Shown piece after piece: positions 76 through 41,200 of a stretch of DNA of 41,200 nucleotides. The stretch is from Bacteroidales bacterium (GTDB lineage: Bacteria; Bacteroidota; Bacteroidia; Bacteroidales; P3): positions 1-41,200 of the forward strand of contig JAFVBC010000004.1 of NCBI GenBank assembly GCA_017480185.1. Reading direction: 5' to 3'. The position numbers were made by a program, and so were the translations under genes. How positions within the stretch are numbered: the stretch's first letter is position 1; every line of letters begins with the position of its first letter. Below the pieces are notes generated by a model. It was not told where the DNA came from. It saw only the letters and a list, made by a program, of their open reading frames with translations, and searched no databases.

Positions 76-1323
76 CTACTTCAACGCCTCTACAAGCGAG
101 GTAAAACATCGTCCACGCTCTTCAAAGTTCTTAAAAGCATCGTAACTGGCCGCTGCAGGCGACAGCAGACAGGCTTTTCCTGTTGCAGTTTGGGCATCGC
201 ACCAGGCAATAATCTTTTCATAATTGTCCTCAACCAGCACCTCGGCAGCTGTGTGTCCCATCATACTATACATCCGCCGCCCTGCGGCACCTACAAATGC
301 AATGTTTTTTACGGGATTAGCTTCGAGAAATGAGGTTAACGGCGAGTAGTCGATACCGCGATCGAACCCTCCAAGAATCAGCGTTTCAACGCCTTCTATC
401 GACTTCAACGCTGCTATCGTTGCCTCGGGGATGGTGGAGATGCTGTCGTTGTACCAACGCACCCCTCGCTTTGTTCCAACCAATTGCAGACGGTGAGGCA
501 ACCCCTTAAACGAGGATAAACGCTGCGCAATGTCGGCATAGGGCTCGATAGCGTGCACTACGGCGCATGCCACCTCGGCATTGATCCTGTTGTGCGCCCC
601 ATCAAGCATACAGTGATGCAACACCATTTCACGCTCTGGACTGGGCAATGTTTCGCCAAAGGGGTGTAACGAGCCGTTAAAACTATGCCTGTCTACCAAC
701 TCCACAAGGTCGGCATTGCAAGCATTGTAGAAGAAATGGTCTGTCGCCGACTGATGCAACGCTATCTGCATCTTTGCCATTTTATAATCGAGATAACTGC
801 CATAATGGTCGAGATGTTCTTGAAAGAGGTTGAGAATTACGGCGATGTGAGGGCTGCGATGCAATATTTCCAATTGGTGGCACGACAGTTCGGCCACAAG
901 CCATTTATCATCATTCAATGCTTCAAGCGTGTCGAACAGTGGTATACCAATGTTTCCTCCAAGCACAGAACGGTCGGCCAGTAGGTGGTGAACAAGCGAC
1001 GTGGTGGTACTTTTACCTTTCGTACCCGTAATGCCAATAACCCGATCGGCGTACACCTGCATAAAGATGTCGGTCTGCGACGTGATCAACGGGCGCACTT
1101 GCTCGGGGAATACCGCAAGCGGAATGCCAGGCGACTTGATTATCATGTCGTATTCCCTGCCCAATGCGGCTTCGATTGCCTGGTTGTTTTCTGCAATATC
1201 AACGTGTTTTTCGCCAACAAGCTGCCGAACAATGGCGTGTGTGCTTCGTCCTTCGCGTCCATATCCAGCTATTAGGATGCGTTTGTTGGCAAACAACTGT
1301 TCTAACTGATGCTGGCGATACAT
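76..1323 (-). CDS. murD2: UDP-N-acetylmuramoyl-L-alanine--L-glutamate ligase (MurD2 type)
   Basis: A 415-residue Mur ligase of the MurD group. Seen: an N-terminal Rossmann start (ILIAGYGREGRST, 16-28), the ATP loop GITGTKGKSTTTS (97-109), AELSCHQLE (145-153), LPHRLQLVG (275-283), NDSISTIPEAT (292-302) where classical MurD has NDSKATN, and the C-terminal SPAAASYDAFKNFEERG (388-404). Family knowledge: MurD2 adds L-Glu, not D-Glu, to UDP-MurNAc-L-Ala in the cytoplasm, and MurL then epimerises the L-Glu. The L-Glu assignment here rests mainly on the partner: the murL reading frame lies immediately upstream and overlaps this start by 22 bases, so the two are probably translationally coupled. Last gene of a seven-gene minus-strand operon. 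If the murL call were wrong this would be annotated as ordinary MurD. Confidence 0.8.
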   Translation of the reverse strand: MYRQHQLEQLFANKRILIAGYGREGRSTHAIVRQLVGEKHVDIAENNQAIEAALGREYDMIIKSPGIPLAVFPEQVRPLITSQTDIFMQVYADRVIGITGTKGKSTTTSLVHHLLADRSVLGGNIGIPLFDTLEALNDDKWLVAELSCHQLEILHRSPHIAVILNLFQEHLDHYGSYLDYKMAKMQIALHQSATDHFFYNACNADLVELVDRHSFNGSLHPFGETLPSPEREMVLHHCMLDGAHNRINAEVACAVVHAIEPYADIAQRLSSFKGLPHRLQLVGTKRGVRWYNDSISTIPEATIAALKSIEGVETLILGGFDRGIDYSPLTSFLEANPVKNIAFVGAAGRRMYSMMGHTAAEVLVEDNYEKIIAWCDAQTATGKACLLSPAAASYDAFKNFEERGRCFTSLVEALK

Positions 1324-2657
1324 TGTTGCAAGATGCTAATTTCTTCGTTGTTAAGGAAATGCTCATTGCACAGATGAGCCAAGTCGACCGAGGCAGTTGG
1401 CCTGTAATCGACCAACAATGCAGGCCTGTCGGTAGCATACCACCTATCTATAGCCATGGCCAAAGCCGTATTAACTTCGTCTACCGTACCCACACATTCA
1501 AAGGGTTTGGTTGCAGCATGGCCAACAAGTTGCTCAAAAATGGGGGCAAGCCGTATGTCGTCGAGCATCGATTTGCCAAATATGGCATTCAACTTGCGCG
1601 GCTCGATAAACGGCGAAAGGATAATATAGGCAAACAGGCACTTGGCACAATTGCCACACCACGAGTCGGTCTTGCTACCCACGTTGCACGACCTAAACAC
1701 ATCGTGGTAGGCCTCAAGGCGACTGAATATCATGGCAATCTGCAACTCGCTCAATGGACGTAGGAAACTGAAGTAACGGCATCCCAAGTGCATACTCTCT
1801 CTCACATAGCGTCCAAAATCGGCCTCAAACTCTATACCTTTAGAGTACTGGTGATTTACCGATGTGCCCAACACTGTGCTTTCGTTGGCCGAATTTTCGT
1901 TACTCAACGCAATACTGCCCATTCCACTGGCTACCGAAGCCACCAACGCATAGAATGCCAACATTGCCGAAAAGGGCGTGTGTCCGTTCAGACATCCCTT
2001 TGCATTCATCTCAAGCAGCAGCGGATCAATGCTACGATGAATAATCACAGCATCGTTTATCGTCACGCCTCCCGCCTCAACACAGCCAATGGTAGCTCCA
2101 CGAGGGTTCATAATAAGTGGACGTACCGTATAGCCAGCCCGCTTAAGTAGTTCCCATGTCACTACCGAGTCCTTACCACCTCCCACCGGAACAAGATATT
2201 GGCAGGTGTTGATTAGGACTTGATCAGGACTTGATAGGGAGTTGGTACCTGCATGAATGCTTGTAAAGTGCTCGATGTCAGTATTTATGCCGTTTGTATA
2301 GAAAAACTCGCCCAAACCGTTCCAATAAAGTTTTTTCCAAAAAGCTACGTCAGACTCGGAAAGTGCCCCACACAAGACATCTATTTGCTTGGGGCACACG
2401 CATTTCCAATAGCTAATCAACTCTATCATACCGATGTTGAAAGCCAAAATATTCAGCGTCTCAACAGGCTGGTTGAAATTAAGAAATGGGCGTTGCTCGA
2501 TCCAACTGTGCGGTCGGAATACAACGTCGTCGCTCAATCGAAACTCAAATTCAAACTCCAGTCCACGGTCGGAGACATAGTGCCGATACGACGCATATTG
2601 CAACACTGGCCATTCGGTGCGCAGTGTGTCGAACAATTGCTGATTGTTTTTCTCCAC
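1302..2657 (-). CDS. murL: UDP-N-acetyl-alpha-D-muramoyl-L-alanyl-L-glutamate epimerase (MurL)
   Basis: A 451-residue protein with a PP-loop-type ATP site, VPVGGGKDSVVTWELLKRAG (156-175), followed by LNGHTPFSAMLAFYAL and ALSNENSANEST, and a Cys cluster CGNCAKC near residue 340. This pattern and length fit MurL, the ATP-dependent enzyme that inverts the terminal L-Glu of UDP-MurNAc-L-Ala-L-Glu (known from Xanthomonas). Adjacency to a MurD-family ligase with a 22-base overlap supports the pathway. It starts 36 bases after the transporter stop. Oddity: codons 137-152, just before the PP-loop strand, are made of the 11-base repeat units that occur elsewhere only between genes (see the repeat entry at 2201-2248). 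The frame stays open, so the gene should be functional unless the extra residues disturb ATP binding. The family call is from memory of motifs. Confidence 0.8.
   Translation of the reverse strand: MEKNNQQLFDTLRTEWPVLQYASYRHYVSDRGLEFEFEFRLSDDVVFRPHSWIEQRPFLNFNQPVETLNILAFNIGMIELISYWKCVCPKQIDVLCGALSESDVAFWKKLYWNGLGEFFYTNGINTDIEHFTSIHAGTNSLSSPDQVLINTCQYLVPVGGGKDSVVTWELLKRAGYTVRPLIMNPRGATIGCVEAGGVTINDAVIIHRSIDPLLLEMNAKGCLNGHTPFSAMLAFYALVASVASGMGSIALSNENSANESTVLGTSVNHQYSKGIEFEADFGRYVRESMHLGCRYFSFLRPLSELQIAMIFSRLEAYHDVFRSCNVGSKTDSWCGNCAKCLFAYIILSPFIEPRKLNAIFGKSMLDDIRLAPIFEQLVGHAATKPFECVGTVDEVNTALAMAIDRWYATDRPALLVDYRPTASVDLAHLCNEHFLNNEEISILQQCIASIS
2201..2248 (+). repeat. 11-base-unit repeat half-element inside murL
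   Basis: After GGCA come four consecutive 11-mers on the plus strand: GGTGTTGATTA, GGACTTGATCA, GGACTTGATAG, GGAGTTGGTAC. They align unit by unit with the right arm of the intergenic element at 19823-19866 (33 of 44 bases identical by eye, the third unit identical). On the coding (minus) strand it encodes residues about 137-152 of MurL without breaking the frame. Only one arm is present; the conserved loop is absent. Confidence 0.75.
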
Positions 2658-7856: not shown

Positions 7857-7917
7857 AAAATCATGGCACCTACAGCACAACCGCACACCCCAAGGGTTGC
7901 ATCACCCCATTTTTGTA

Positions 7918-7993
7918 CTATCAACTCCCTATCATCTCCTATACAACGCCCTATCATCTCCTGCCGTTCTTCAGTCAAAGTGGGATTTGATAG
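7918..7993 (+). repeat. intergenic 11-base-unit hairpin repeat, copy B
   Basis: Four 11-mers in a row: CTATCAACTCC (7918), CTATCATCTCC (7929), TATACAACGCC (7940), CTATCATCTCC (7951). Then TGC and the conserved loop CGTTCTTCAGTCAAA (7965-7979), then a decayed right arm with one recognisable unit GGATTTGATAG (7983-7993). It lies between the divergent promoters at 7826-7856 and 8038-8069. The loop is the reverse complement of that in copy C, so the two elements lie in opposite orientation. Confidence 0.85.
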
Positions 7994-19719: not shown

Positions 19720-19767
19720 CGAAAAATGCGCAACATACATTCGCCACCTCCCCTTGCCACCATCGCC

Positions 19768-19866
19768 CTATCATCGCCCTATCATCGCCCTATCAACTCC
19801 TGCTTTTGACTGAAGAACGGCAGGAGATGATAGGGAGTTGTATAGGACTTGATAGGGCGATGATAC
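19768..19866 (-). repeat. intergenic 11-base-unit hairpin repeat, copy C (best preserved)
   Basis: Left arm (plus strand): CTATCATCGCC (19768), CTATCATCGCC (19779), CTATCAACTCC (19790), then TGC, the 16-base loop TTTTGACTGAAGAACG (19804-19819), GCA, and right-arm units GGAGATGATAG (19823), GGAGTTGTATA (19834), GGACTTGATAG (19845), GGCGATGATAC (19856). All units are exactly 11 bases. CTCCTGC/GCAGGAG closes the loop, and the arms pair well for 30 or more bases. It lies between the divergent aguB and TPR genes. Strand is given by the loop orientation relative to copy B. Confidence 0.88.
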
Positions 19867-19936
19867 CACCTTGGGGCAGACAAAAACAGACCATACTGCA
19901 CACAATAAAAAATCGAGTCCCTACGTTAGTGAGGGC

Positions 19937-41080: not shown

Positions 41081-41200
41081 TTTTCTGCGCCGCACCATCG
41101 CCCACCCTCCCCCTGACCAAGTCCCTATCAACTCCTGCCGCGGCAGGAGTTGATAGGGACTTGGTCAGGGGGAGGGTGGGCGATGGTGCGGCGCAGAAAA
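41081..41200. repeat. perfect 120-base palindrome at the window end, containing repeat copy D
   Basis: Bases 41081-41140 and 41141-41200 are exact reverse complements with no loop, and the palindrome runs to the last base. The left half contains units CTATCAACTCC (41123-41133) and the end TGCCG of the 11-base repeat family, preceded by a variant unit CTGACCAAGTCC. The conserved 16-base loop is missing. A fold-back assembly artefact at a contig end is the simplest reading. Confidence 0.85.

Follow-up and report, generated by a model that had tools for sequence, protein, structure and literature searches.

Palindromic repeat DNA within the MurL linker of a Bacteroidales genus

The window, i.e. 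the whole stretch of 41,200 nucleotides analysed here, covers positions 1 to 41,200 of contig JAFVBC010000004.1 from a Bacteroidales bacterium (assembly GCA_017480185.1). Its relevant features are:

76..1323, minus strand: murD ORF (TIGR01087, 272 bits, cut-off 212)
1302..2657, minus strand: murL-like ORF with a GTG start (NCBIfam MurL_Xanthmoales, E 8.8e-74)
2166..2183, minus strand: PP-loop GGGKDS, murL codons 159-164
2201..2249, plus strand: repeat arm formed of a core GGCAGG, three full units and a terminus TTGGTACC; on the minus strand it forms murL codons 137-152
7903..7979, no strand assigned: second intergenic element (arm and loop), 7919-7979 being 92% complementary to 19805-19865
19758..19867, no strand assigned: full palindromic element, intergenic, with a C-rich arm (19758-19803), a loop (approx. 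19804-19818) and a G-rich arm (19819-19867)
41093..41200, no strand assigned: contig-end element, within a perfect 60-bp zero-spacer inverted repeat (41081-41200)

The murD and murL ORFs overlap by 22 bp. The bit score of the murL ORF (248.6) is below the curated cut-off of the MurL_Xanthmoales model (700); in an alignment of 45 MurL sequences, positions G159-G161, D163 and S164 of the PP-loop are invariant. When the MurL profile was compared with PDB sequences, TtuA was the sole match, around the PP-loop (best E 5.8e-4). Solved relatives in the PDB amount to 16 distinct sequences for MurD, some of which are other Mur ligases, and 169 for HtpG. At two loci (L040 and L058), murL and murD form a single ORF of 890 and 901 codons, respectively. 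Open frames of 900-965 codons are found at murL in six more genomes of the genus (G005, G033, G034, G039, G042 and G045), and natural MurL-MurD fusions thus look common.

Codons 137-152 of murL are confirmed to be one arm of an 11-bp-unit palindromic element. The corresponding residues read GTNSLSSPDQVLINTC, followed by QYLVPVGGGKDS, and six codons lie between the arm and GGGKDS. In an ungapped alignment, 38 of 49 bases are identical between the murL arm and the intergenic arm at 19819-19867. For the 44 bases initially compared, the identity is 33/44, versus at most 25/44 in 20 block-shuffled windows; as the best 25 rows listed from the same genome score 35-44, the murL arm is a more diverged copy. 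An nhmmer model built from 64 arms of this genome (a few of them poor, the murL arm and the window element at 19764 being excluded) matches positions 2220-2247 (E 3.5e-5) and 2202-2228 (E 0.0041), and its best match in the reversed window has an E-value of 1.3. Moreover, 12 of the 53 11-mers of the linker recur in window positions 6001-41080 plus locus L002, against a maximum of seven for 104 equal-length windows of murL. Used as a query against the genome, the MurL protein also matches an intergenic element (C1:6601-6741) through its residues 128-168 (E 3.2e-4), with one stop within the matched stretch. The murL copy extends from the core across the three full units to the terminus (compare locus L009), and the second arm is missing.

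The initial annotation had described positions 2201-2248 as an intergenic element of four 11-base units, inserted in frame just before the PP-loop. Its central claims are borne out: a dispersed element is copied within murL, the reading frame is kept, and the arm adjoins the PP-loop. Some details have to be amended. The arm runs to 2249 and comprises three full units, a core and a terminal part; likewise, one arm of the element is present in murL and the other is absent. The passage was presumably from intergenic to coding DNA.

The family is widespread in the genome of the window. With up to two mismatches, the pattern TGATAGGRNNWTGATAGG is matched 116 times (71+45), and the reversed pattern three times (1+2), so the further copies that the initial annotation anticipated do exist. 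At least 42 distinct elements were found in the window and 51 loci of the same genome, these loci having been picked because they hold pattern matches and locus L002 for its MurL match. In whole elements, a CCTGC-loop-GCAGG core separates two inverted arms built of 11-bp units, the arms at 19758-19867 being 77% complementary, and most arms in this genome contain 4-6 loosely matched 11-bp units (56 arms, read by eye). Of the 42 elements listed, eight lie within an ORF of 120 codons or more. Inspection by eye assigns seven of them to the ends of ORFs, likely upstream extensions, short ORFs or antisense frames; murL was judged to hold the sole element of the 42 bracketed by conserved protein, i.e. 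located inside a gene. The window elements at 7.9 and 19.8 kb appear to sit between divergent ORFs, an arrangement that does not point to a simple role as terminators. The fold-back at 41081-41200, centred on the element core, may be an assembly effect at the repeat. At gathering thresholds, Rfam yielded no match in the window.

MurL was retrieved by protein search from 53 of 81 genomes, including 43 of the 48 same-genus relatives (some as fragments), and a scan of a titled collection provided 46 MurL loci, partly from the same genomes. Candidatus Colimorpha onthohippi is one member of this genus, and loci L061 (genome G013) and L078 are identical in sequence. The alignment displays a hypervariable stretch between the motifs YxNGI and YLVPxGGGKDS, and residues 137-152 are variable among relatives, as had been predicted. 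A unit of 11 bp is not the essential feature: relatives hold 7- or 8-bp arrays in the same linker. In many species this stretch clearly consists of other repeats, such as AATGAGG/ATTCCTC in G002, GAGAGTG/TCTCCAC in G007, CTACCCA in G046 and CAATCAAG-like repeats in G014 and G037. Arrays (period 7, 8, 10 or 11, at least three copies) were detected in the linkers of 18 of 42 genus MurL and in none of the 14 outgroup linkers; the array of the window is too degenerate to count under this definition. Over the whole gene, 40 arrays occur in 20 of 42 genus murL, compared with a mean of 0.45 and a maximum of 3 when synonymous codons are permuted; the 14 outgroup genes contain none. These arrays are a property of the DNA. 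In addition, linker halves pair better within genes than between species (0 of 5,000 permutations as high, 27 linkers, species composition differences remaining in this test).

The murL repeat had been thought to add a peptide beside the ATP site. This is contradicted by the distance from a conserved Asn motif to GGGKDS, which is 30 residues in the window, 28-32 in outgroups (n=11) and 29-52 in the other genus members measured. As the linker of the window is no longer than that of outgroups, there is no net gain and the repeat codons probably replaced native ones. The segment at a second site in MurL (site 2) is 6-12 residues long in 23 sequences and reaches 13-30 residues in ten others, nine of which carry an array there. 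On a quick MurL tree (variable regions masked, labels assigned by reading), the presence of arrays takes ten changes to explain and the three 8-bp cases were gained independently, with many weak branches and long outgroups. One linker (locus L038, genome G022) contains CTCCCTGCCCGCAGGTG, which resembles the core of the 11-bp family; this family is abundant in G022, and the linker may here hold a degraded copy of it.

Arrays are also frequent in murD: 55 were found in 19 of 40 genus genes, versus a permuted mean of 0.80 (maximum 4) and one array in 11 outgroup genes. The murD of the window has no 7-, 8- or 11-bp array listed, and relatives' murD have several. In one clade, MurD contains arrays at five sites, the same sites being occupied by different repeats according to the species. 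Mean pairwise identity is 79% outside the array sites and 36% inside (22 sequences). Loci L066 and L068 are 90% identical outside the five sites, yet their arrays at site e differ in unit length, 7 bp at one locus and 8 bp at the other. Site c has 18 residues in 16 of 19 matched sequences, with or without an array, and lengths differ by seven residues at site a and three at site d. These small changes in length indicate that much native sequence was overwritten. Pairing is weak between the arms of sites c and d (195 of 5,000 permutations, 14 sequences) and not above chance between those of a and b (1,239 of 5,000, six sequences) or between the halves of MurL site 2 (797 of 5,000, four sequences).

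Beyond these two genes, stretches of 17 relatives and the window contain from 0 to 77 arrays of period 6-12 per 100 kb. An array was considered intragenic when a stop-to-stop ORF, from a simple caller, extended for 50 codons on either side. This was the case for 26/46 arrays in G002, 8/15 in G022, 7/20 in G007, 7/40 in G014 and 6/19 in G004, and for 0-3 in each of the remaining 13 genomes. A Pfam scan of ten array-bearing ORFs located at least one array within a domain match in six (FolC, RarA/MgsA, uridine phosphorylase, HtpG, LplA and a SAM methyltransferase); two others had no Pfam match, and in the last two the arrays were outside or at the edge of the match. In the HtpG of G007, a complete palindrome is read in frame. 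As judged by eye, the uridine phosphorylases of G002 (the one covered by the Pfam scan) and G022 carry distinct repeats at matching positions. Median array lengths are 32, 34 and 37 bp for units of 7, 8 and 11 bp, respectively, detection threshold included, and median copy numbers are 3.4-4.6 for units of 7, 8, 9 and 11 bp. Among 7-bp units, 103 of 113 lack G or lack C, versus 25% of random heptamers. Encoded peptides vary with the repeat family in relatives, and the window's genome has one coding copy among the elements listed.

Whole-genome pattern counts indicate a patchy distribution of repeat families over 99 genomes of the genus. The window's genome (G000) has 60 matches to the 11-bp family at one mismatch and none to the other four families. 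More generally, the family found in a linker tends to be abundant in the same genome: for 11 genome-family pairs in 30 genomes, none of 20,000 permutations scored as high, and still none for 13 pairs once the weaker G004 and G015, with partial GTGGARA arrays, were added, bearing in mind that pairs were assigned by reading, that linker matches were subtracted by estimate and that patterns were chosen from the linkers. The linker families of G009, G004 and G015 are rare in their own genomes, with 1-5 matches after subtraction (for GTGGARA, five in G004 and three in G015), and these weak pairs rank 7 to 10 of 30. In a separate, less clear-cut test on stretches of DNA (38-60 kb for 15 genomes, 20 kb for three), the linker exceeded every control window of its gene in 6 of 18 cases (G000, G002, G003, G007, G021 and G046), with G003 passing by 4 versus 3 and having no array in its linker; the other 12 were not above theirs. 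The GTGGARA family, the only one sought outside the genus, was detected in 42 of 99 genus genomes versus 7 of 149 genomes of the order (which include the window's own and one more of its family), with 1-5 matches in each of the seven. The reversed-pattern control is unclean for some 7-bp patterns, 118 one-strand matches in G036 exceeding the pattern's own count, and a few such matches also appear in two of the other counts; we took them for other repeat families.

From the observed family identity, dispersal, conserved frame, recurrence at the same sites and presence of different families at one site in close species, we consider it likely that selfish palindromic repeats repeatedly overwrite or enter permissive protein segments in frame, murL being one case of a process that spans the genus. 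A copy of the non-coding palindromic element of 11-bp units, dispersed mostly between the genes of the window's genome, would have arrived in a MurL linker tolerant of very different sequences, where it became codons 137-152; native codons being lost, the linker would keep its ancestral length. Many species have abundant families of their own, mostly of 7-, 8-, 9- or 11-bp units in arrays of approx. 32-38 bp, whose copies would repeatedly enter or overwrite a few permissive segments of housekeeping proteins, selection retaining just those that preserve the frame, approximate length and fold. Copies presumably move by DNA insertion or replacement, and their effect on the protein may be near-neutral.

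Some host or trans-acting activity would be expected to spread these repeats. A Y1/RAYT transposase does not seem to be needed: PF01797 (Y1_Tnp) had no match in the window's genome (97% complete) or in the repeat-rich G009, G014, G037 and G125. Mobilization by a RAYT is not supported in the window's genome. The domain is nonetheless found in 63 of 99 genus genomes, including the repeat-rich G002, G007, G022 and G046, where it could possibly play a role. No clear target-site duplication was visible in the five locus pairs compared. Simple random insertion fits poorly with the fixed array length and the fixed boundaries in MurD, which require strong selection or another form of copying. One conceivable, although rather unlikely, form is an active process in which arrays of approx. 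33 bp move between their dispersed locations and set positions in protein genes, so that essential enzymes of different species would trade short segments in cassette fashion, at constant length and frame. If so, these repeats would constitute a DNA-driven generator of protein segments, distinct from both classical transposition and slippage.

Arrays could also arise in place, a native heptamer or octamer being amplified by replication slippage and then homogenized, with nothing copied in. The near-constant length at several MurD sites and the shortness of arrays at every unit length are compatible with such an origin, and at MurL site 2 the native Phe-Asn-Tyr codons TTCAACTAT stand where locus L067 has an array of the similar unit TTTCAAT, so that slippage is possible at some sites. 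As a general explanation it is nevertheless improbable, given that the murL arm has its core and terminus in common with intergenic copies, that linker families match those abundant in the same genome, that linker halves are matching inverted arms and that close species differ in unit length at one site. We give practically no credence to a fortuitous resemblance of native MurL residues to the repeat or to an assembly artefact. The window comes from one MAG contig, whose right end carries a suspicious fold-back, but the family model gives E 3.5e-5 for the murL segment versus 1.3 for the reversed window, and repeats of different sequence form arrays in this linker in many MAGs of different origin. 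On the basis of 11-mer recurrence, the family model, synonymous permutation and arm identity, both chance similarity and native coding were rejected.

Two functional explanations would have the repeats kept for a use. The first is a hairpin in the transcript or in single-stranded DNA, acting for instance on the stability or translation of a murL-murD mRNA. The pairing of linker halves, and more weakly of MurD c-d, is in its favour, but MurD a-b and MurL site 2 halves pair no better than chance, the window copy is a single arm and 24 of 42 genus linkers have no array under the definition above, which makes this use quite improbable. Units of 7, 8 and 11 bp, not being multiples of three, would also suit phase variation, a change in copy number toggling the protein off and on. 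This is scarcely credible for arrays of few and often imperfect copies, found in housekeeping enzymes among others, and no listed murL ORF was flagged with an internal stop.

The proposed overwriting or invasion of permissive segments by selfish repeats has known counterparts. Rickettsia is the best-known case of palindromic repeats lying in frame within protein genes. Two reports describe Rickettsia palindromic elements (RPEs) as repeats of approx. 150 bp, with several families per genome, lying in frame within unrelated protein genes (PMC10969869, PMC3733652). The likeness noted by the initial annotation is apt, since the present elements are palindromic, dispersed and in frame: the window's genome combines a dispersed palindromic element with an in-frame murL copy, and in some relatives many copies are intragenic. 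Set against those descriptions, the arms here are built from 7-, 8- or 11-bp units in short tandem arrays, a gene can hold a single arm, unrelated families occupy one site in different species, native length is often kept and the host is a genus of Bacteroidales. PMC3733652 also reports intragenic REPs of the GTAG and CGTC families in housekeeping genes (Opitutus terrae, Thauera, Xanthomonas recB). Some of these genes hold two, and in recb the REP occupies roughly the same position in two Xanthomonas species. Such REPs are palindromes of 20-40 bp tagged with GTAG or CGTC, and some flank tyrosine transposase genes. Housekeeping genes are thus hosts in both cases, but the window's genome has unit arrays without such a tag (no constant GTAG or CGTC foot was read in 56 of its arms) and no Y1 transposase was found. 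The present repeats belong to the same class of phenomena as RPEs and intragenic REPs, from which they differ by their tandem-unit arms, single-arm copies, families at fixed sites and kept length.

The STRR of cyanobacteria are a comparable system, alongside heptameric repeats. The latter, in Xanthomonas and Nostoc, are presented in PMC4692102 as dispersed tandem 7-bp units, G-rich, with four copies preferred and an over-representation in non-coding DNA. Dispersed tandem 7-bp units are shared with our genus, where in contrast most 7-bp units lack G or C (103 of 113), arms are often inverted and many are intragenic. Within Bacteroidales, the BrickBuilt MITE of Porphyromonas gingivalis is likewise a short repeat element but, as reported in PMC10969869, a strictly intergenic one. 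The 188-bp Prevotella repeat described in PMC4755523, intergenic and without terminal inverted repeats, is a different thing. A search of titles and abstract openings, mostly outside the subscription literature, retrieved no report of in-frame short-unit palindromes in Bacteroidales.

A gut-associated genus of Bacteroidales hence appears to have the same habit with differently built repeats, in murL, murD, folC and htpG. The recurrent sites and their turnover between close species offer a natural test of which segments of a protein tolerate overwriting, and of how repeats lacking a known transposase spread. Annotators should also be aware that a variable linker in proteins of this kind may consist of repeat DNA and not of sequence shaped by adaptation.

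Other parts of MurL vary as well. At the C-terminus, seven loci (L046, L048, L050, L063, L064, L066 and L079) have 9-bp arrays in codon phase (LKDLKDLKD, LENLEILENL and others), which precede a GNLxxEER-like motif and represent alternative families at one place. Three loci (L064, L069 and L059) have a further variable stretch before the linker, e.g. PLSSKERG or LPRPLCEGENGG, which looks like yet another palindromic repeat family.
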